From contig DYEV01000032.1 of assembly GCA_020725545.1 (NCBI GenBank), forward strand, positions 1 to 64,000: a stretch of 64,000 nucleotides of DNA. The letters are read 5' to 3'. This stretch comes from Desulfobacca sp. (GTDB lineage Bacteria; Desulfobacterota; Desulfobaccia; Desulfobaccales; Desulfobaccaceae). Of this stretch, positions 1,313 through 18,218 are shown one piece after another. The position numbers and the translations under genes are program-made. Under the pieces are notes generated by a model that worked only from the letters and a program-made list of their open reading frames with translations, was not told the origin of the DNA and searched no databases. Within the stretch, counting starts at the first letter, position 1, and each line of letters begins with the position of its first letter.

Positions 1313-2908
1313 ATGAGGCTTTTAACGGCAGCGCAGATGCGCGAATTGGATCAGCGAACCATCGAGGCGATGGGTATTCCGGGTATTGTTCTCATGGAAA
1401 ACGCCGGGCGCACCACCTATCAGATCCTGCGGCAGGAATTCCCTGAGCTGGATGATCCCGTCGTTGTCCTGGCCGGCCGGGGCAACAACGGTGGTGACGG
1501 TTTTGTGGTGGCCCGTTATCTGGCCAATGCCGGGCGCGAGGTCATTGTCCTGCTGCTGGCTGAGCGGGACCAGGTCCAGGGGGATGCCAGGATCAATCTG
1601 GACATCCTGGAGCAATTGTCCGTGCTGGTCTATGAAATTACCAGCGAAGAGGAATTGCGGGAGCAGGTGCCCTTATTGCAAAGCGCCGGATTATTGATAG
1701 ATGCCCTTTTGGGTACGGGGTTGGCCAGTGAAGTGCGGGGGTTATACCGGCTGGCCATCGATATCCTCAACGCCATGCTGGCACCGGTGTTGGCCATAGA
1801 TATCCCGTCGGGATTATCGGCGGATACGGGCCAACCCCAGGGAGCTGCGGTGGTGGCCGATGTCACGGTCACCTATGGCTGGCCCAAGCTGGGGCAGATC
1901 CTGCCGCCGGGACGGGACCTGGTGGGGCGTCTCTGGCAGGTGGATATCAGCATCCCGCCGTCGTTGGCCGAGATCAGTGGCGTCACCTTGGCCGATCCGG
2001 CGCAGCTGCGCCTGGCCTTGCCCCATCGCCGCCGGGACAGCCACAAGGGCAATTTTGGCCACCTCCTGGTGGTGGCGGGTTCCGTGGGCAAGACCGGGGC
2101 CGCCACTTTAACCGGGGAAGGCGCCTTGCGGGTGGGGGCTGGTCTGGTAACCGTGGGGATTCCGGCCAGTCTGAATGCCATTTTGGAGATGAAGCTTACC
2201 GAGGCCATGACCATGCCGTTGGCCGAGGCCGAGGGGGTGGCGGCTTTGGGACGCCGGGCCTTGGAAGAGATTGCCGCAGCCGTGCCCGGCAAAACTGCGC
2301 TGGCGGTCGGACCGGGTTTGGGGACGCATCACGAAACCGTGACTTTGGTGCGGGAGTTGGTGCGGCGCAGCACCCTGCCTTTGGTGGTGGATGCCGACGG
2401 CCTCAATGCCCTTGCTCATGATGTTGAAAGTGTCTTCGCCTCCCAGGCGCCCATTGTTCTGACGCCTCATCCAGGGGAAATGTCCCGGATCCTGAAGTGC
2501 TCCACAAAAGAGGTGCAGGACAACCGCCTCTATGTAGCGCTGGAGGTGGCCGAGAAGACCGGGGCGGTCGTGGTGTTGAAAGGGGCGCAGAGCATCGTAG
2601 CCGACCCGAACGGTCGGGCGATGATCAATACCACCGGTAATCCGGCGTTGGCTCAAGGCGGCAGCGGCGACGTGCTTACCGGCATGATCGGCGGCTTTTT
2701 GGCCCAGAAAGTGGACCCCTTCCAGGCCGCGTGCCTGGCAGTCTATCTGCACGGTCTGACCGCCGATGTGTTGGCTGCCAGTCACGGCACCTGCGGCATC
2801 TTGGCCGGAGAACTCCTGTTAGAGTTGCCGGAAGTGATCAATGCCTTTGCTTTAGGGAATTTGCCCAAAACCGAGGAGCAGCCATGCTACAGGCTCGTGA
2901 TATCATGA
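1313..2908 (+). CDS. nnr: Bifunctional NAD(P)H-hydrate epimerase / ADP-dependent NAD(P)H-hydrate dehydratase
   Basis: A fused metabolite-repair enzyme of 531 residues. The N-terminal YjeF_N (NnrE) domain spans about residues 1-215 and has the GRGNNGGDGF nucleotide-binding loop; it epimerises R- and S-NAD(P)HX. The C-terminal NnrD domain, about 225-510, has a ribokinase-like fold with GPGLGTHHE and GGSGDVLTG motifs and dehydrates S-NAD(P)HX using ADP. The ATG at 1313 is preferred over a TTG 39 bp upstream because GAGGTGAG sits just before it. The 3' end overlaps the next gene by 25 bp, so the two are probably cotranslated. Confidence 0.93.
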   Translation: MRLLTAAQMRELDQRTIEAMGIPGIVLMENAGRTTYQILRQEFPELDDPVVVLAGRGNNGGDGFVVARYLANAGREVIVLLLAERDQVQGDARINLDILEQLSVLVYEITSEEELREQVPLLQSAGLLIDALLGTGLASEVRGLYRLAIDILNAMLAPVLAIDIPSGLSADTGQPQGAAVVADVTVTYGWPKLGQILPPGRDLVGRLWQVDISIPPSLAEISGVTLADPAQLRLALPHRRRDSHKGNFGHLLVVAGSVGKTGAATLTGEGALRVGAGLVTVGIPASLNAILEMKLTEAMTMPLAEAEGVAALGRRALEEIAAAVPGKTALAVGPGLGTHHETVTLVRELVRRSTLPLVVDADGLNALAHDVESVFASQAPIVLTPHPGEMSRILKCSTKEVQDNRLYVALEVAEKTGAVVVLKGAQSIVADPNGRAMINTTGNPALAQGGSGDVLTGMIGGFLAQKVDPFQAACLAVYLHGLTADVLAASHGTCGILAGELLLELPEVINAFALGNLPKTEEQPCYRLVIS

Positions 2909-10843: not shown

Positions 10844-12151
10844 ATGCGCATTCCCTTGGAAGCACGAATCGAATCGGCGGTCTGTCCGGGCTGTGCCTGC
10901 CTGTGTGACGACATTGATGTGACGGTGGTGGACGGCCGGGTTTACCAGGCCGCAAATATCTGCCTCTGGGGAGCCAGTAAGGTTCTGGGGCACAAACGCT
11001 TCCACCCCAAAAAAGAACGCCGTCGCCTGGCGCAGCCGCTGATCAGACACCGGGGCCGCTGGCAGACCGTCAGTGTCGATGCGGCCATTGACCGGACCGC
11101 CGAAATCCTAATCAAGGCCCGCCAGCCGGTGGTCTATGGCCTGACCAATGCCGGCTGCGGCGCCCAGGCAGCCGCCCTCCAAGTCGCCCGGCAGGCTCAG
11201 GCCCGGCTGGAACCCGCGGATCTCGCCTGGAAAGCCCCTTATTATCAAAGCCTGAAAAAATATGGGGTGTTTTGGGCGACCCTGGAAGTCATCCGCGATG
11301 AAGCCGACACCCTGGTGTTTTGGGGAGCTAACCCCCTCCATTCCTGCCCCCGCCACGTCGTCCGGTATTCCATTTTTGCCCGTGGGCGTTTCACTGAGCG
11401 GGGCTATGATGAACGCCGTTTGGCGGCCGTGGATATTCACCGGACGGAACTGGCTGATCTGGTCGAACTCTTTCTGCAGGTCGAGCCGGGCCAGGAACTC
11501 TCCCTCCTCCAGGAGGTCCTGACAGCTACTGCAGCGGCCGGGGGCGCCGTCAGCAAAAAAGCCCGCCGCTTGGCCGCCATGCTGCAGGAAGCCCACTACG
11601 GCGTCATTTTTTTCGGCCGGGGCGTCAGCTACGGGCCGACCCCGGAACTACTGGACGGTCTGGCCGGCCTCACCGCCCGGCTTAATGAACACACCCCCTT
11701 TGTCCTCTTTCCTCTGAGCACGGATTTTAATGCCGTGGGCCTCTACCACCTCCTGCTCAGGGAATTGGGCAGCCCTTTGGCCCCGGATTTTGGAGCAGGG
11801 GAGGTGAGTTTCCATGCCGAACCGCTCCGTTGGACCGACGTCGATGCCCTCCTGGTCGTCGGCGCCGACCCCTTCTGGTTCCTGAGCGCCGCGGAGATTC
11901 AGGACCTGCACGAACGCCGGGTGCCGGTGGTGGCCCTCAGCCCTGTGGCCAACCGCACTACCGGCCATGCCGAGGTTGTGCTGCCGGTGGCGCTGGCCGG
12001 CGTGGAAACCCCGGAACTGGCTTATCGCATGGACGGCCTGCCCTTATCCTTGCCCGCCCTGCTGCCGGCCTCCCTGCCCTCTGATCAACAGCTTCTCCAG
12101 CAATTGGCTGCCGCCCTGGGCTGCAGCCACCGGGGGATGGCATGCGTTTAG
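10844..12151 (+). CDS. FmdB/FwdB-like protein with altered active site
   Basis: 435 residues, the usual length of the catalytic B subunit of formylmethanofuran dehydrogenase. Cys14, Cys17, Cys21 and Cys40 (VCPGCACLC ... NICLWGASK) match the [4Fe-4S] ligands, and WGANPLHSCPRH matches the conserved WGCNPMHAHPRH. From YGLTNAGC onward it aligns without gaps to remembered FwdB sequence, and the Mo/W-binding Cys-His (in ASVCHGPS) falls on Trp129-Lys130 (DLAWKAPYY). Molybdopterin chemistry is therefore doubtful. The ATG at 10844 is chosen over a TTG 15 bp upstream; the Shine-Dalgarno is weak. It overlaps fmdA by 10 bp. Confidence 0.88.
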   Translation: MRIPLEARIESAVCPGCACLCDDIDVTVVDGRVYQAANICLWGASKVLGHKRFHPKKERRRLAQPLIRHRGRWQTVSVDAAIDRTAEILIKARQPVVYGLTNAGCGAQAAALQVARQAQARLEPADLAWKAPYYQSLKKYGVFWATLEVIRDEADTLVFWGANPLHSCPRHVVRYSIFARGRFTERGYDERRLAAVDIHRTELADLVELFLQVEPGQELSLLQEVLTATAAAGGAVSKKARRLAAMLQEAHYGVIFFGRGVSYGPTPELLDGLAGLTARLNEHTPFVLFPLSTDFNAVGLYHLLLRELGSPLAPDFGAGEVSFHAEPLRWTDVDALLVVGADPFWFLSAAEIQDLHERRVPVVALSPVANRTTGHAEVVLPVALAGVETPELAYRMDGLPLSLPALLPASLPSDQQLLQQLAAALGCSHRGMACV

Positions 12152-13509
12152 CCATCGTTGGCGGCAGAGTTTTTGACCCTGCCAGCGGCTGGGATGGCCA
12201 GGAACGGGATATCTACCTGGCGGACGGTCGGGTGGTGGACTTTCTGCCGGCGGTGGATCAGGTAATCAATGCCCGGGGGCTGGCAGTAACTCCCGCGGGG
12301 CTGGAGATCCGCAGCCCGGTGGCCGGTTTCGGCCAAAATTTCTTGCGGCTCTGGGGGGGCTTGCCCTCACCGGCAGAATTGGGCCACACCTATGCCCTGC
12401 TGGGCTATACCCATGTCCATGAACCCTGCCTGACGCTGCCGACAGCCAATTACGTCCACCAAGAGCTGGCCGCGCTGCCCATCGTCGATACCTCGGCTTC
12501 CTTGGCCATAAACTTACGGGATGTTGATCTGTGGCTGCAAGATCCCCAAAAACTGGCCGACGTCGGCGAGGCCTGGGCCTACCTCTTGGAATCCACCCGC
12601 TGCCTCAATCTCCGGGTGGTGGAACCGTTTGTCAAATTCCGGCAGGATTTTTACCGCTACCGCGCCCTGACCGAGGAAGTGGTCGTAAACCGCTTGCTGA
12701 CCATAAGGGAACAGATGCGGCTCCCCCTTACCATGGAAGCCACCCCCGCCCTCCTGACCCTGAACCTGCCGGTCCACCCTGGTTTGCATCTTAGCGGCCT
12801 GGGGGCAGCCTTGACTGACGAAGCCCTCCTGGACCGCGCCCTCCACCTGCTGGCTACCGGCCTTACCGCGGATATGGGGCTGCTGCCGCCGGCCCCCCGC
12901 CCTGGCTTCCCGTCCCGTCCCGTTCAGGTTGATCTGGGTTGGTTTCAACCCTTTGATCTGCTTCCCGAGCTGGAGCCACAGGTGGCTCGGCGAGCCCTGC
13001 GTCTGGCGGTCCAGGGGAAGGAATGGCGTCTGGCTTTTTCGGTAGCCTCACTGCTGTCCCTGCCTCTCAGCAGCTTCTCGCAGGTTTTTGCCTGGCTGGG
13101 TGATGCCGCCAGCCGCCGGCGCGACTGGGGCGACGTTCAGTTGGAAGGAACCCACTCGTTCACTGATTGGCTTCGGGCCACCCGCCTCCTGCCGGCCCAA
13201 TATCTCGGGTTGACAGATCGGGGACATCTCCAGCCCGGCGCCCGTGGCGACGTGGCCCTTTATGACCTGCTTGGCTCTGACACCTGGGCAAAGAATTGCC
13301 AGCGCTGCCGGCTGCTCTTCAAAGCCGGAGAACTGGTCGTGCACAATTACGAAGTGGTCCAGCCGCATGTGGCCAAAGCCACCTATTATCGCCGCACTCA
13401 GGCAGTGCCCAATAAACTGGTGGCCGACCTCTGCCAATATCGCAGTCTGCGCCCCGAAAATCTCCAGGTGCGCGTCCAGCCGCACCAGCACTGGCAGCAG
13501 GTGGCCTAA
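12142..13509 (+). CDS. FmdA-like amidohydrolase-fold protein, predicted inactive
   Basis: 455 residues homologous to formylmethanofuran dehydrogenase subunit A. The fold is recognisable from GGRVFDPASGWDG, LGYTHVHEPCLTLP, PIVDTSA and YLGLTDRGHLQPG. The metal ligands of the family are missing: the SHTHVAG motif reads IRSPVAG (Arg57, Pro59), the IHVHCNN region reads LTMEATP, and TTDHPNGGPF reads FSVASLLSLPL. It is probably a structural subunit. It overlaps fmdB by 10 bp and its stop shares an A with the next ATG (TAATG). Confidence 0.85.
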   Translation: MRLAIVGGRVFDPASGWDGQERDIYLADGRVVDFLPAVDQVINARGLAVTPAGLEIRSPVAGFGQNFLRLWGGLPSPAELGHTYALLGYTHVHEPCLTLPTANYVHQELAALPIVDTSASLAINLRDVDLWLQDPQKLADVGEAWAYLLESTRCLNLRVVEPFVKFRQDFYRYRALTEEVVVNRLLTIREQMRLPLTMEATPALLTLNLPVHPGLHLSGLGAALTDEALLDRALHLLATGLTADMGLLPPAPRPGFPSRPVQVDLGWFQPFDLLPELEPQVARRALRLAVQGKEWRLAFSVASLLSLPLSSFSQVFAWLGDAASRRRDWGDVQLEGTHSFTDWLRATRLLPAQYLGLTDRGHLQPGARGDVALYDLLGSDTWAKNCQRCRLLFKAGELVVHNYEVVQPHVAKATYYRRTQAVPNKLVADLCQYRSLRPENLQVRVQPHQHWQQVA

Positions 13510-13964
13510 TGGCGACGTTGGCGGAGATTCGGGAATTTCTGCCGAATTCGGACTGCGGCCAATGCGGGCTCACCTGCGCTGAGTTTGCCGAATTTCTGCA
13601 GCGCCATGAACTGGCCCCGGAAGACTGCCCGGTGCTCCATGAACTGGATTATGCCGGGTTCATCGAGGCCCTGCGCGAAGTCCTGGGGGAGCCGCAGACC
13701 AAACCTGCCGCCGGCATGGCCGTTGATCCGAAAAAATGCATCGGCTGCGGAATCTGTGTCACGCTGTGCGAATACCACCTCGGGAATTGTGCCGACGTCA
13801 GGTTAAGCAAAGGGCCCCGGGACCTGGAGCAGGTTATTTTCCATATTGTCAATGGCTTGGTGGTCGTGGTGCACCAGGAACACTGCACCCGCTTGGTGCA
13901 GGCTGCGGAAAAATGCAGCAAATGTGCCCAACATTGCCCGACCAAGGCCATTACGTTATATTAA
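13509..13964 (+). CDS. Multi-cluster Fe-S protein with CFeSP-type N-terminal cluster motif
   Basis: 151 residues. The N-terminus has DCGQCGLTCAEFAEFL with a following Cys, the [4Fe-4S] motif found at the start of the corrinoid Fe-S protein large subunit and related redox proteins. Two more clusters follow: CIGCGICVTLCEYH and a spaced CTRLVQAAEKCSKCAQHCP. It is a likely soluble electron carrier. The start codon overlaps the fmdA stop, so the two are translationally coupled and it is probably part of the same complex. Confidence 0.85.
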   Translation: MATLAEIREFLPNSDCGQCGLTCAEFAEFLQRHELAPEDCPVLHELDYAGFIEALREVLGEPQTKPAAGMAVDPKKCIGCGICVTLCEYHLGNCADVRLSKGPRDLEQVIFHIVNGLVVVVHQEHCTRLVQAAEKCSKCAQHCPTKAITLY

Positions 13965-13978
13965 CCAAGGAAGTACAG

Positions 13979-14034
13979 TTGCCATTTCTTAGTTCTCAGT
14001 TGTTAGTGGTCGGTGATTAGTTAACAGTTAGTGG
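13979..14034. repeat. Low-complexity AGTTA/GTGGTC-type repeat
   Basis: The stretch reads as degenerate tandem units of the type TTAGTTCTCAGTTGTTAG and GGTCGGTGATTAGTTAAC. Similar wording occurs at 5490-5524 (TTGCTGGTCATTGGTTGC). I see no coding signal. It is followed at 14121-14163 by a G/C-rich palindrome (CTCGCCCCCCGCTTGCGAGG) ending GTAGGGTGAGGGGG; a relative lies at 41963-42001. Confidence 0.5.
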
Positions 14035-14201
14035 CGCAGGCCTCCGGGCCCGCCCAAACCTCCTCCCTCGGTGGGGTGGGCAATACCCACCACTTCATTG
14101 GCTTGAGGATCACCGAAACTCCCTCGCCCCCCGCTTGCGAGGGGAAGGGGTAGGGTGAGGGGGCCAGTGACATTTTCCTGCTTCGCTCATGACCGCAGGT
14201 A

Positions 14202-14696
14202 ATGACTCTTAAACAGATGGAAAAACTGCGTATTCAAACCTTAGAGCCGAATTTTCCGGACGAAGTGAGCCGGGAACCGGGCTGCCAACACCTGCAGCGC
14301 TGTTTTGCCTGTGGCGTCTGTACTGCCGCCTGTCCGGTCAGTGCCGTGACGCCGGAATTCAGCCCCAGCCGCATCCTGCGCCAGATCATCTACGGCCTGC
14401 GCAGCGACTTGCTCTCGTCGCCCGCCCTGTGGTATTGTCTGGGCTGTGCCCACTGCTCCTTCCAGTGTCCCCAGGACGTGCGCTTTCTGGATATTATTCA
14501 GGGACTGCGACATCTAGCCATCCGGGAGGGGTTCGTGCCGCCGGATCTGGCTGAACGGTGTCGGCAGGCCGAAATCTTGCTGCTCCAAGTCCGCCGGCGC
14601 CTGCTGGCCGAGATTCTCCACACGTCCCGGCAAACTGAGCCTCTCGAAGATCTCCTGGGCCTTATTATTGCAGATCTCCAGGGAGGTGCCCGGTAA
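14202..14696 (+). CDS. hdrC: HdrC-like Fe-S subunit
   Basis: 164 residues with two classic [4Fe-4S] motifs, CFACGVCTAACP near residue 31 and CLGCAHCSFQCP near 84, the arrangement of heterodisulfide reductase subunit C. It passes electrons between HdrA and a partner subunit. A leucine-rich helical tail follows the clusters. There is no HdrB (CCG-domain) gene anywhere in the window. It lies 237 bp after the Fe-S protein and 22 bp before hdrA. Confidence 0.88.
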   Translation: MTLKQMEKLRIQTLEPNFPDEVSREPGCQHLQRCFACGVCTAACPVSAVTPEFSPSRILRQIIYGLRSDLLSSPALWYCLGCAHCSFQCPQDVRFLDIIQGLRHLAIREGFVPPDLAERCRQAEILLLQVRRRLLAEILHTSRQTEPLEDLLGLIIADLQGGAR

Positions 14697-14718
14697 TGGG
14701 CGGCAGCCAAGCAGGACC

Positions 14719-17700
14719 ATGACCCCGCCACGCCCCCTTAGCAGCATTGCCCATCACCGGGTCTTGGTCATTGGCGGGGGGATTGCCGGCATCCAGGCCG
14801 CCCTCAATGTGAGTGCCATGGGCCTACCCGTCACCCTGGTGGAGGAACGCCCTTCCCTGGGCGGGGTCATGGCCCAACTGGACAAGACCTTTCCCACCAA
14901 CGACTGCGCCATGTGCATCCTCTCCCCACGTCTGTTGGAAATCAGCCGCCATCCGGATATCCACCTGCTGACTTCCAGCCGCGTGGTGCACATAGCCGGC
15001 GCCGCCGGGAACTTTCAGGTGACCGTGCATCAGACGCCGCGCTATGTGGATCCAGAAAAGTGCACCGGCTGCGGCGAGTGCCTACGCGTCTGCCCGGCCA
15101 AAATCCCCGATCCATATAACGCCGGTCTCAATACCACCAAGGCCATCCACTTGCCGTTTCCTCAGGCGGTGCCGTTGGCTGCGGTCATTGACGCCCAGGC
15201 CTGTCGAGTTTTCCAGGGAAAGAAATGCGGCGCCTGTGTCAAGGTCTGTCCGGCCCAGGCCGTCAATCTGGCGGAGCAACCGCAGGAATGGCTCCTGCAG
15301 GTCGGCGCCGTGATCGTGGCCACGGGCGCGGCGCCAGCCGCTGGAGAAGCCGTTTGGGGACCCCGGCATCCCAATATCGTTACCAGCCTGGAATTCGAAC
15401 GTCTTTTGAGCGCCACCGGCCCCCATCAGGGCAGCCTCCGCCGGCCGACGGACGGCAAAATCCCCTCCCGCCTGGCTTTTATCCAGTGTGTCGGCTCCCG
15501 GGATCCCCGCTTGGGAATCCGCTACTGTTCGACCATCTGCTGCACTGCCAGTCTCAAGGAAGCAGTGATCGCCACGGAATTGGCCGGCGGCAATCTGGCG
15601 GCCACCATCTTTTATATGGACTTGCGGACCTCGGGGAAAAATTTTGAGCGCTATCTGGATCAGGCTCAACACCATGGGGTCCGCTTGTGTCGCTCCCGGG
15701 TGACCCGACTCCATGCTGAGCCTGCCGGAGACGTGACGGTCTGCTACACCGATGCCCACGGCCGGCCGTGCACCGAAACTTTCGATATGGCGGTCCTGGC
15801 CATGGGTTTACATCCCCCGGCCGCTGGGGCCACCCTGGCCACCGCTTGGGGCTTGCCCCGCAACGAACACTATTTTTTCGCTGCCATGCCGGGAAGTCAG
15901 GTCCAAGCGCGGCGGCCCGGGATTTTCCTCTGCGGCACCGCCCAGGAGCCCATGGACATCGCCGAAGCGGTGACCACGGCCGGCGCGGCCGCCGCTGCGG
16001 TTTCCCAACTCCTGGCTCTGGCCGACCGCCGTCTGGGGGACGCGCCGACCGTGCCGGTTCCCAGCGCCGCAGATCGGCAGCAGCCCCGCATCGGCGTTTT
16101 CCTCTGCCACTGCGGCACCAACATCGCCGGTGTTTTGGAGCTGACTGCCCTGGCCGCCGCAGTGTCTCAGCTGCCCACAGTTGTTCACGTCGAGGAGGAG
16201 CTTTTTGCCTGCTCCTTGGACGCCACCAAAAAACTGGCCGAAATTATCCGCGCCAAACACCTCAACCGCATTGTCGTGGCGGCCTGCTCGCCGCGGACGC
16301 ACGAACCGGTCTTCCGGGAGGTCGTGCGGGCCGCCGGTCTCAACCCGGGGTTTGTCGTCATGGCCAATATCCGGGAGCAATGCGCCTGGGTACACCAACA
16401 GGAACAGGAGGCAGGCCTGCTCAAGGCCCGCCACCTCCTTGCCATGGCCGTGCGCCAGGCCGCCTGCCTGGAACCGCTCCAGGTCCAGAGTGCCGCCATT
16501 TTCCCCAGCGCCCTTATCATCGGCGGTGGGGTGGTCGGCCTTACCGCGGCCCTGACCTTGGCTGACCAAGGCTTCCCCTGCTACCTCCTGGAACGGCAGC
16601 CGGACTTAGGGGGACTAGCCCGCCAGCTGCAAAGCTCTCTGACCGAGCCGCAGCCAGCCCAACTCCTCCTCGACCTAATCTCCCGGGTCCGGAGCCATCC
16701 GAACATTACCGTGTTGACGCGCACCGAGTTGTGCCGGTTGGAGGGTTCTTGCGGCCAATTTCAGACCACGGTACGACAAAAGACGTTGGCAGGTCCCCAA
16801 GACCTGCGCCTGCAGCATGGCGCCATTATCGTCGCCACCGGCGGCCGCGAGTTCAAACCCCATGGACGCTTTCTATACGGCGAAGACGACCGAGTTCTCA
16901 CTCAACTTGAGTTGGAGGCCAGACTGCAAGCCGGATCGCTCCCCCTGCCCCCGGCACCGGCCATCATCATGGTCCAATGCGTCGGCTCTCGGGAACCCGA
17001 GCATCCCTACTGCAGTCGGGTATGCTGTGCGACTGCGATAAAAAATGCTATACTCATAAAACAACGTTGGCCCTTAGCTGATGTGGTCATCCTCTATCGG
17101 GATATCAGAACCTATGGGTTCCTTGAGGATGCCTATCTGCAGGCCAAGGACTTGGGCGTCAGGTTTCTGCCGTATATCCCGGAGCGCCCACCCCGTTTGA
17201 CCGTCGGGCCCCGGCGCCATCTGCAGGCGCTAGTCTGGGATGAACTGCTGGGCTGTGATCTGCACCTTCCGGCTGATTTGGTGATCCTGAGCGCCGGGCT
17301 GGAACCACGCCCTGAGACGGCGGCCGTCGCCCAATTACTAGGCTTGCCCCGTGCCGCGGATGGATTCCTCCTGGAGGCGCATCAGAAGTTGAGGCCGGTG
17401 GAGACGGCCGCAGAAGGCATCTTCCTCTGCGGTCTGGCCCATTCCCCGCGCCATCTGCCGGAGGCCATCTCCCAGGCTCAAGCGGCCGCGGCAGCCGCAG
17501 CGCGCCTCCTCTACCAAAAATCCCGCTGGACCGGCGATCTGACCGCCAGCATCCAGGGGGGCGCGTGCCGCCGCTGCCTCAGTTGCCTGGCAACCTGTCC
17601 GGTGGGGGCCATCCGCTTGGGGCCGGAGGGCAAACCAGCCGTGCAAGCCCACCTCTGCCAGGGGTGCGGCACCTGTGCGGCCCAATGCCCGGCCCTCGCC

Positions 17701-17766
17701 ATTACCTTGAACCGTTCCACGGCTGCCGAAATCGCCGCGCAAACGGCCGGTCTCTTTGCCGATTAA
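14719..17766 (+). CDS. hdrA: Large HdrA-type flavoprotein (two FAD domains)
   Basis: 1015 residues. Order: a first Rossmann/FAD domain (GGGIAG near residue 19) with an inserted ferredoxin pair (CTGCGECLRVCP near 115 and CRVFQGKKCGACVKVCP near 161); an internal HdrA N-terminal-like domain (IGVFLCHCGTN near 458); a second FAD domain (GGGVVG near 602) without a ferredoxin insertion; and two C-terminal clusters (CRRCLSCLATCP and CQGCGTCAAQCP). HdrA flavoproteins bifurcate or confurcate electrons. Canonical HdrA is about 650 residues. The start at 14719 follows an AGCAGGA site; no MvhD or FloxA-type partner is present. Confidence 0.9.
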   Translation: MTPPRPLSSIAHHRVLVIGGGIAGIQAALNVSAMGLPVTLVEERPSLGGVMAQLDKTFPTNDCAMCILSPRLLEISRHPDIHLLTSSRVVHIAGAAGNFQVTVHQTPRYVDPEKCTGCGECLRVCPAKIPDPYNAGLNTTKAIHLPFPQAVPLAAVIDAQACRVFQGKKCGACVKVCPAQAVNLAEQPQEWLLQVGAVIVATGAAPAAGEAVWGPRHPNIVTSLEFERLLSATGPHQGSLRRPTDGKIPSRLAFIQCVGSRDPRLGIRYCSTICCTASLKEAVIATELAGGNLAATIFYMDLRTSGKNFERYLDQAQHHGVRLCRSRVTRLHAEPAGDVTVCYTDAHGRPCTETFDMAVLAMGLHPPAAGATLATAWGLPRNEHYFFAAMPGSQVQARRPGIFLCGTAQEPMDIAEAVTTAGAAAAAVSQLLALADRRLGDAPTVPVPSAADRQQPRIGVFLCHCGTNIAGVLELTALAAAVSQLPTVVHVEEELFACSLDATKKLAEIIRAKHLNRIVVAACSPRTHEPVFREVVRAAGLNPGFVVMANIREQCAWVHQQEQEAGLLKARHLLAMAVRQAACLEPLQVQSAAIFPSALIIGGGVVGLTAALTLADQGFPCYLLERQPDLGGLARQLQSSLTEPQPAQLLLDLISRVRSHPNITVLTRTELCRLEGSCGQFQTTVRQKTLAGPQDLRLQHGAIIVATGGREFKPHGRFLYGEDDRVLTQLELEARLQAGSLPLPPAPAIIMVQCVGSREPEHPYCSRVCCATAIKNAILIKQRWPLADVVILYRDIRTYGFLEDAYLQAKDLGVRFLPYIPERPPRLTVGPRRHLQALVWDELLGCDLHLPADLVILSAGLEPRPETAAVAQLLGLPRAADGFLLEAHQKLRPVETAAEGIFLCGLAHSPRHLPEAISQAQAAAAAAARLLYQKSRWTGDLTASIQGGACRRCLSCLATCPVGAIRLGPEGKPAVQAHLCQGCGTCAAQCPALAITLNRSTAAEIAAQTAGLFAD

Positions 17767-17783
17767 CAAAAGGAGTACGACAA

Positions 17784-18218
17784 GTGCGGGAAAGTTACTG
17801 CGGCATCTGCAACGAATGCCAACTGGGAGATTACGAATTTCTCGAAACCGTTGCCCTCATGAAGGAATACATCGAACGGTTCCGGGCCAACTACTGGACC
17901 CACTGTTTTCCGGAAGAGGAAGGCTTTAATTTCGTCGAGTTCCGTAAGGGCTTGGATTGGCTCCTGAGCCACAAGGATTGCCCGGGCTGCAAACAGGGGC
18001 GGGGCACGGCCGATTGTCCCATCCGGAATTGTGCCCGGAGCCGGGGGATTGAGAATTGCTATGAATGTTTAGATCTCAAGGATTGTACCAATTTTCAATT
18101 CCTGGAACAGGAATTCCCCGATGTGAAAATCAAACTGCTGCGCCGTCAGATGCAATTCAAAGCCCAGGAATACCACCGGCGCTTGGAGGATACGCGTCGG
18201 AACAAAACCAAGATATAG
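17784..18218 (+). CDS. DUF3795-type cysteine-rich protein
   Basis: 144 residues with cysteine groups YCGICNEC at the N-terminus, DCPGCKQG, DCPIRNCARSRG and CYECLDLKDC, matching the DUF3795 zinc- or metal-binding pattern. The function is unknown; such proteins are common in strict anaerobes. The GTG start follows AAAGGAG with good spacing, 17 bp after hdrA, so it belongs to the hdr operon. Confidence 0.85.
   Translation: MRESYCGICNECQLGDYEFLETVALMKEYIERFRANYWTHCFPEEEGFNFVEFRKGLDWLLSHKDCPGCKQGRGTADCPIRNCARSRGIENCYECLDLKDCTNFQFLEQEFPDVKIKLLRRQMQFKAQEYHRRLEDTRRNKTKI

Follow-up and report, generated by a model that had tools for sequence, protein, structure and literature searches.

A six-gene block in a Desulfobacca genome

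The first 64,000 nucleotides of contig DYEV01000032.1 from Desulfobacca sp. (assembly GCA_020725545.1; contig C32 of genome G000, 2.94 Mb and 99.96% complete), hereafter the window, carry at 10844-18218 a block of six genes on the forward strand, encoding relatives of the formylmethanofuran dehydrogenase subunits FmdB (FwdB) and FmdA (FwdA), an iron-sulfur (Fe-S) protein, HdrC- and HdrA-like proteins and a DUF3795 protein (Table 1). An earlier reading of this DNA from its letters alone (the sequence-only reading) had proposed here a new complex in which a dead FmdBA conducts electrons to HdrA. We report that the block is a real and conserved unit, probably functional, whose FmdB lost the catalytic residues of FwdB and kept its Fe-S cysteines. 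Coordinates and frames were borne out, as were the overlaps of the FmdB gene with FmdA (10 bp) and of FmdA with the Fe-S gene (1 bp, TAATG).

Table 1. Location and family assignment of the block genes and of other features considered (aa, amino acids; ANME, anaerobic methanotrophic archaea; positions are in the window unless a locus is named)
Feature	Position	Strand	Family
FmdB/FwdB-like subunit, 435 aa	10844-12151	+	TIGR03129
FmdA/FwdA-like amidohydrolase-fold subunit, 455 aa	12142-13509	+	TIGR03121
Fe-S protein, 151 aa	13509-13964	+	PF04060 and two-cluster ferredoxin part
Gap between Fe-S gene and HdrC, 237 bp	13965-14201	+	
HdrC-like protein, 164 aa	14202-14696	+	TIGR03290
Double HdrA-like protein, 1015 aa	14719-17766	+	NF040770
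DUF3795 protein, 144 aa, GTG start	17784-18218	+	PF12675
Flanking genes checked: L,D-transpeptidase, endonuclease/phosphatase-family, heptosyltransferase-family, ABC-2 transporter, P-II, FKBP, radical SAM			
ANME-1 second FmdB-like protein	L171:5110-6411		
ANME-1 second FmdB-like protein	L172:8452-9771		
ANME-1 second FmdB-like protein	L173:333-1634		

Against their NCBIfam models, the FmdB-like protein scored 292.9 bits (E 2.9e-87, cut-off 327.8) and the FmdA-like protein 115.9 bits (E 1.5e-33, cut-off 392.75), so that neither passes as a true enzyme. HdrC (78.6 bits, E 4.5e-22, cut-off 160) and HdrA (892.2 bits, E 2.6e-268, cut-off 1100) also fell below their thresholds; the DUF3795 protein exceeded its own (E 2.7e-9). 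All 12 motif cysteines of the Fe-S protein, forming the PF04060 motif (C16, C19, C23, C40) and the two-cluster ferredoxin part (C77, C80, C83, C87; C126, C136, C139, C143), are invariant in 12/12 aligned sequences, as are the eight ligand cysteines of the two CX2CX2CX3C motifs of HdrC (C34, C79) in 17/17. HdrA is a double unit with two flavin adenine dinucleotide (FAD) motifs (G19, G602), an inserted ferredoxin in its first half (cysteines 115-177) and a C-terminal two-cluster ferredoxin (950-990), the ferredoxin cysteines of both regions being invariant in 13/13, and the DUF3795 protein has 11 cysteines invariant in 13/13.

No HdrB (CCG), F420-subunit (FdhB/FrhB-type), MvhD or hydrogenase domain appeared among the Pfam families of the six proteins, the remaining genome not having been searched for HdrB, and neither Pfam nor NCBIfam placed a FwdC/FmdC among the six, a genome-wide search for FmdC not having been made. 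The single regular-expression match to HdrB (CCG) in the window (1428-1679, +) resembles, by eye, a chance match out of frame. FmdD supplies the last cofactor-binding domain; the PF01568 (FmdD-type) search of the Desulfobacca genome found no stand-alone FmdD/FwdD, since all six matches sit inside frames of 706-977 aa. Matches to the MvhD part occur in this genome on contigs other than that of the block, and HdrA-/MvhD-type matches with a single in-frame TGA, perhaps selenocysteine, were noticed at C29:210381-214027, C6:8603-8989 and C25:180682-181050.

The 237-bp gap before HdrC was rejected as a repeat, the window giving short weak matches only, and in the same-genus genome G003 the Fe-S and HdrC genes overlap by ~13 bp (starts approximate), so that the gap is local. 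The seven flanking genes checked are unrelated to the block, and six lie on the opposite strand.

Distribution within the order

Among the 29 genomes of the order Desulfobaccales, FmdB relatives were recovered from 20, one as a 41-residue contig-end fragment, with 52-71% identity to the window protein in the 16 longer loci. Block-type DUF3795 proteins (at least 183 bits) occur in 22, a count that omits five weaker matches of 97-150 bits (second copies in G011, G019 and G026, sole match in G016 and G023). At least part of the block is thus present in 22/29 genomes (20 with FmdB, two cut by contig ends), and uniqueness to this genome, which the sequence-only reading had named as a possible refutation, is excluded. 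FmdB and DUF3795 occur together in 20 genomes, DUF3795 without FmdB in two, FmdB without DUF3795 in none and neither in seven (Fisher p 2.3e-5, uncorrected for kinship). G020 holds FmdA-FeS-HdrC-HdrA-DUF3795 on a contig ending inside FmdA, and G001 holds HdrA-DUF3795 alone on a 3.6-kb contig ending inside HdrA.

Twelve of 16 loci compared in the order contain all six genes in order, with extra genes between them in some, three are cut by contig ends, and the remaining one is the split block of G002 (below). In several relatives, a cyclophilin-type prolyl isomerase lies between FmdB and FmdA at L046:6600-7127, L048:9995-10573 and L050:9648-10181 (Pfam run on L046 only). The Fe-S and HdrC genes overlap or lie within 44 bp of each other at 9/16 loci; in some relatives the gaps reach 878 bp there and 1592 bp between HdrC and HdrA. 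Such gaps, the 237 bp seen here and a block split in G002 would be expected if fmdBA-feS and hdrCA-DUF3795 were adjoining but unrelated units working apart. We consider this very improbable, as the close FeS-HdrC spacing at nine loci, the joint inheritance of the genes and the gene order kept outside the order in family f71 (below) all speak against it.

Residues lost and retained in FmdB and FmdA

For FmdB, 20 family sequences were aligned with 27 of the FwdB type, from methanogens, one Archaeoglobi and one Peptococcaceae, and with 14 of the FhcB type; L011 and L018, with no open reading frame entry, and L041, in which a stop interrupts the FmdB frame, are not among the 20. The FwdB columns of the metal-ligand Cys, the catalytic His and the catalytic Arg, which we take to be Arg288, are kept in 0/20 family members, the window protein holding W129, K130 and S292 there. 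Cys118 and His119 are named as FwdB residues in the available parts of PMC12054007 and PMC11656701. By contrast, the N-terminal cysteines C14, C17, C21 and C40, which correspond to the [4Fe-4S] site of FwdB, are kept in 20/20, each being present in only 5-6/14 FhcB sequences.

Retention in FmdB extends beyond this cluster. Of 114 columns conserved in FwdB, 53 are kept by the family and 24 by FhcB (39 by the family only, 14 by both, 10 by FhcB only and 51 by neither), the FwdB conservation being overstated because that set is mostly Methanomicrobiales. Eleven positions (W160, N163, D197, G258, G260, N296, G299, D342, R395, D397, P400) are present in 20/20 family members and in 0-6/14 FhcB sequences, and D294 and W345, invariant in the family (20/20) and unlike FwdB, fall in the old active-site loops. 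In a wider table, the f40 and complete f13 copies (relatives outside the order, below) keep all eleven, the complete f71 copies lack P400, and FmdB of L227 (f3) also lacks N163, D197, G258 and G260. Because FmdB keeps many positions lost in the cofactor-free FhcB, its pterin pocket may survive. Calling FmdBA dead, as the sequence-only reading did, suits the lost FwdB and FwdA catalytic residues but overstates the case for the FmdB pocket as a whole.

Such a pocket raises the possibility that FmdB is alive, binding a pterin-guanine-dinucleotide (pyranopterin) cofactor whose metal has no amino-acid ligand and catalysing an undescribed redox reaction coupled to HdrA, where it would replace HdrB at one end of flavin-based bifurcation while FmdA guides the substrate. 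In its favour are the 39 columns kept by the family and lost in FhcB, the new invariants D294 and W345, and the precedent of arsenite oxidase AioA, given in the available part of PMC10100899 as the only MopB enzyme whose metal lacks a protein ligand. We nonetheless regard a live FmdB as unlikely. Cys, His and Arg are all gone, W345 and a YY motif could fill the pocket, the FwdB conservation is inflated as noted, and f71 and L227 lack some of the retained positions. Furthermore, no stand-alone FmdD was found in this genome, while the relatives that adjoin FmdD have Cys (L178, L226 and the L180 fragment) or Arg (L215) at the ligand position.

For FmdA, we take the HxH, Lys and Asp columns of FwdA to be the zinc ligands. 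The window protein holds R57, P59, R and A there, keeping none of the four, and lacks the segment that bears a further conserved His. Across the family (n = 25, excluding L011), the HxH histidines are kept in five and three sequences, Lys in four and Asp in five, mostly in f40 and the fragment L079; the FmdA-like copies of ANME-1 keep all four in 4/4.

The AlphaFold2 models of FmdB (predicted local distance difference test, pLDDT, 88.1; predicted template modelling score, pTM, 0.88) and FmdA (pLDDT 86.0, pTM 0.89) give the FwdB fold for FmdB, whose sequence keeps the one [4Fe-4S] site, and the FwdA fold for FmdA, whose sequence lacks the zinc ligands. The FmdB model matched FwdB best (5t5m_B, Z 46.8, root-mean-square deviation (rmsd) 1.7, 415 residues aligned; 7bkb_H, Z 43.9), followed by FhcB (6s6y_F, Z 31.9), the Elp-Hdr chain 8rvu_D (Z 28.5, rmsd 2.7, 322 aligned) and Nfn-ABC and complex I subunits (Z ~26-27), and that of FmdA matched FhcA (6s6y_E, Z 37.9) ahead of FwdA (Z 35.9). 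A shared fold shows no function.

FmdBA might also be a purely structural scaffold that carries no electrons, much as FhcB, a non-catalytic scaffold according to the available parts of PMC10100899 and PMC12054007; the lost metal ligands of FmdA fit such a role. It is hard to reconcile with the cluster cysteines of FmdB, kept in 20/20 against 5-6/14 in FhcB, and with neighbours that are Fe-S and Hdr genes, and we hold it to be improbable.

Relatives outside the order and partner genes

Among 395 genomes sampled across the phylum, those of the order included, 36 gave an FmdB-like match (E 1e-20 or better). Genomes of relatives bear the family tags f3, f13, f34, f40, f71 and f74; in f34, FwdB is of the genuine type. 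The complete f71 loci (L219-L222) carry polyferredoxin, HdrA-MvhD, HdrA, FmdB, FmdA, FeS, HdrC and a double HdrA with 40-43% identity to that of the window, so that the order FmdB-FmdA-FeS-HdrC-HdrA recurs in 4/4; L225 ends inside FmdB. Five of six f40 loci carry HdrA-MvhD, HdrA (543-551 aa), FeS, FmdB and FmdA, with unrelated genes interspersed in places, and the sixth, L069, has less than 1 kb upstream. The f40 HdrA-MvhD protein has 779 aa where complete and is represented in L053 by its end portion only. Between HdrA and FeS of L053 (2337-7501) lie, by eye, a nucleotidyltransferase-like pair and a reverse-transcriptase-like protein.

PF02662 accounts for the MvhD part of HdrA-MvhD in all five proteins analysed, which come from f40, f71 and this order. 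The statement of the sequence-only reading that MvhD is missing holds for the block itself, but relatives add an HdrA with MvhD, another HdrA and an FwdF-like polyferredoxin. The latter (best NCBIfam match FwdF, 94.3 and 105 bits, cut-off 375) is full length in 20/29 order genomes, in 13 of which it immediately follows DUF3795, and co-occurs with the block (19 both, three block only, one polyferredoxin only, six neither; n = 29, p 0.0011) and with FmdB (17, three FmdB only, three polyferredoxin only, six; p 0.010). It is also present at 5/5 f71 loci and, within f40, at L213 and L214; it is missing from the 2.9 kb upstream at L083, and the upstream sequence of L053 and L216 is too short to show it.

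As for one-carbon (C1) chemistry, the formyltransferase Ftr (PF01913) was found in 0/29 order genomes, the two positives among 14 controls both being methanogens, which speaks against methanofuran chemistry, and a formyl chemistry on methanofuran and tetrahydromethanopterin (H4MPT) was therefore rejected. MetF was dismissed as a telling partner because it is present in 29/29. The same phylum contains genuine-type FwdB (CHGP) and FwdA (43% to its Archaeoglobi counterpart) at L223:2377-6161 and L224:6476-10263, with a gene of 281-282 aa behind them and, close by, genes that by eye resemble those of the H4MPT pathway.

In an Archaeoglobi genome (L178), FeS-FmdB-FmdD heads a row of CO dehydrogenase/acetyl-CoA synthase (CODH/ACS) genes, most of them named by eye. 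In this genome and in some bacteria, FmdB-FmdD modules lie near CODH/ACS or CooC genes (L178:9057-19192, L215:6632-9701, L226:498-11035, L179 and L180), accompanied by an Fe-S protein in L178, L215 and L179, and the ligand position holds Cys or Arg. Such loci could mean that the module descends from, and still acts as, an accessory of CO dehydrogenase, passing electrons from it to HdrA or serving its maturation, with another CODH or a ferredoxin as its partner in the order. FmdB with FeS, FmdD or FmdA indeed stands near CODH/ACS or CooC in L178, L053, L214, L215, L226 and L227, and two f40 loci (L053, L214) add CdhA-CdhB. We nevertheless think this improbable. An archaeal-type CdhA query gave weak partial matches in 7/29 order genomes (best 21.3 bits) and none in that of the window, bacterial CooS not having been searched with its own model, and the f40 unit of L213 has no CdhA immediately after FmdA. 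Moreover, cdhC (ACS), present in the other three genomes of the genus, had no match in the Desulfobacca genome, and a dependence on CODH/ACS in the order was discarded since this genome has neither cdhC nor an archaeal CdhA match.

Three ANME-1 genomes hold an FwdB that groups with the genuine ones and a second FmdB-like protein keeping Cys-His (Table 1), followed in L171 and L172 by an amidohydrolase-type gene (Pfam run on the L171 gene). ANME-1 was rejected as donor of all three genes: its FmdA-like gene is solitary, the second FmdB-like gene is found at another site and the Fe-S gene, shortened, at a third. In a 51-row tree, unrooted and with a long-branch warning (including L227 and L178), the ANME-1 second copies, the FmdD-linked copies and genuine FwdB split off together (100/99). 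If the root lies on the genuine-FwdB side, the Cys-less copies without FmdD would form one clade with a single loss of Cys, L215 standing apart.

A proposed electron-transfer role

At the level of sequence, the composition of the block, its joint inheritance and the pattern of residue loss and retention are established. We give about even chances to the block encoding a bacterial counterpart of the archaeal Hdr-Fwd supercomplex, one that does no C1 chemistry and where FmdBA serves HdrA as Fe-S relay or scaffold. This explanation is favoured because of the joint inheritance, the f71 gene order, the contrast of 0/20 catalytic with 20/20 Fe-S residues, the absence of Ftr, the co-occurrence of polyferredoxin, the structural matches and the archaeal precedents of MopB proteins without cofactor. 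The six products would form a soluble HdrA-centred complex, in which electrons may pass, in either direction, between the HdrA flavins and FmdB via HdrC and the three-cluster Fe-S protein. As relay and docking scaffold, FmdBA would connect HdrA with a low-potential pool, represented by the FwdF-like polyferredoxin in many relatives and by CO dehydrogenase in a few, and HdrA would bifurcate or confurcate electrons between this pool and a carrier reached via HdrA-MvhD.

Several observations weigh against this explanation. FmdB was not found at all in G001, whose block is cut by a contig end; in G002 the genes from FmdB to HdrC are followed by an unrelated long gene and DUF3795 lies on another contig; and the polyferredoxin is missing from the Desulfobacca genome itself, from G002 and from G021. 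Farther away, the trio of FmdB, FmdA and Fe-S genes stands without a nearby HdrA in all six f13 loci, three of them with ample flanks and the complete ones ordered FmdB-FeS-FmdA, and in both f3 loci, of which L227 adjoins CODH/ACS genes and the other lies on a 3.3-kb contig. Finally, the eleven retained FmdB positions would seem to exceed what a pure conduit needs.

Our data suggest that a methanogen-like CO2-fixing enzyme core lost its catalytic residues and was retained as wiring in a new complex. If so, not archaea alone but bacteria too recruited the CO2-fixing core of methanogenesis to wire HdrA complexes, and a testable electron hub can be named for Desulfobacca-type organisms. The relatives would provide a natural series, from copies mostly keeping Cys with FmdD and CODH/ACS to copies that lost Cys and joined FmdA and HdrA, of how a molybdo/tungsto-enzyme may become a conduit.

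Comparison with known systems

No bacterial FmdBA-HdrA unit turned up in the literature searched, subscription papers being outside its reach: the available parts of PMC9012536, PMC4543118 and PMC11493965 hold nothing on an FmdBA-Hdr unit, and that of PMC10100899, which describes bacterial FwdB-family members and Cys-less sequences in both FwdB and FhcB sets, mentions no unit linked to Hdr.

The Fdh-Hdr-Fmd supercomplex (7bkb) and Fwd (5t5i/5t5m/5t61) share with the block the FwdB and FwdA folds and homologues of HdrA and HdrC, and with many of its relatives an FwdF-like polyferredoxin. Unlike Fwd, the block has lost the catalytic Cys, His and Arg and the zinc ligands and has neither FwdC nor FwdD, and no Ftr was found in the order. 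FhcABCD of methylotrophs (6s6y), whose FhcD is Ftr, likewise has an FmdB-type protein without the catalytic Cys, and its FhcA is the best structural match of the window FmdA; however, FhcA keeps the zinc-ligand columns, and in FhcB the Fe-S cysteines and the pocket positions retained by the FmdB family are mostly gone.

Closer in principle are two archaeal systems. ElpA of the Elp-Hdr(-Fmd) complex of Methanothermobacter marburgensis is, in the available part of its description (Nature 2025, PMC12350162), a molybdopterin-free MopB protein in an electron arm to HdrA. The block shares with it a MopB protein without the metal-ligand Cys that is genetically linked to HdrA, and the FmdB model matches 8rvu_D, deposited as a formate dehydrogenase alpha subunit and taken to be ElpA. 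ElpA differs in deriving from FdhA and being truncated, whereas FmdB derives from FwdB, is full length and is accompanied by FmdA; Elp-Hdr moreover works with the F420 subunit ElpB, the MvhD-type ElpC and HdrABC, whereas HdrB, the F420 subunit and MvhD are all missing from the block. The accessible part of PMC12054007 describes type II HdrA-'Molybdop'-FdhB clusters in ANME-2/3 and Methanosarcinales relatives and proposes a non-catalytic supporting role; Molybdop, like FmdB, is a MopB protein adjoining hdrA without a Cys118 equivalent. These clusters are archaeal, include FdhB, MvhD and HdrBC, with no FmdA described in that part, and the Molybdop clade is placed there near FdhG/FhcB and not in FwdB.

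A conserved unit with HdrA whose FmdB retains its Fe-S cysteines thus agrees with the conduit of the sequence-only reading, which would not be wholly new: the principle is already known because ElpA-Hdr, where it was shown, and HdrA-Molybdop, where it was proposed, are archaeal precedents. The retained FmdB pocket is the point that could make the block more than a bacterial variant of this archaeal kind. The bacterial variant is new; the kind of system to which it belongs is already known in archaea.

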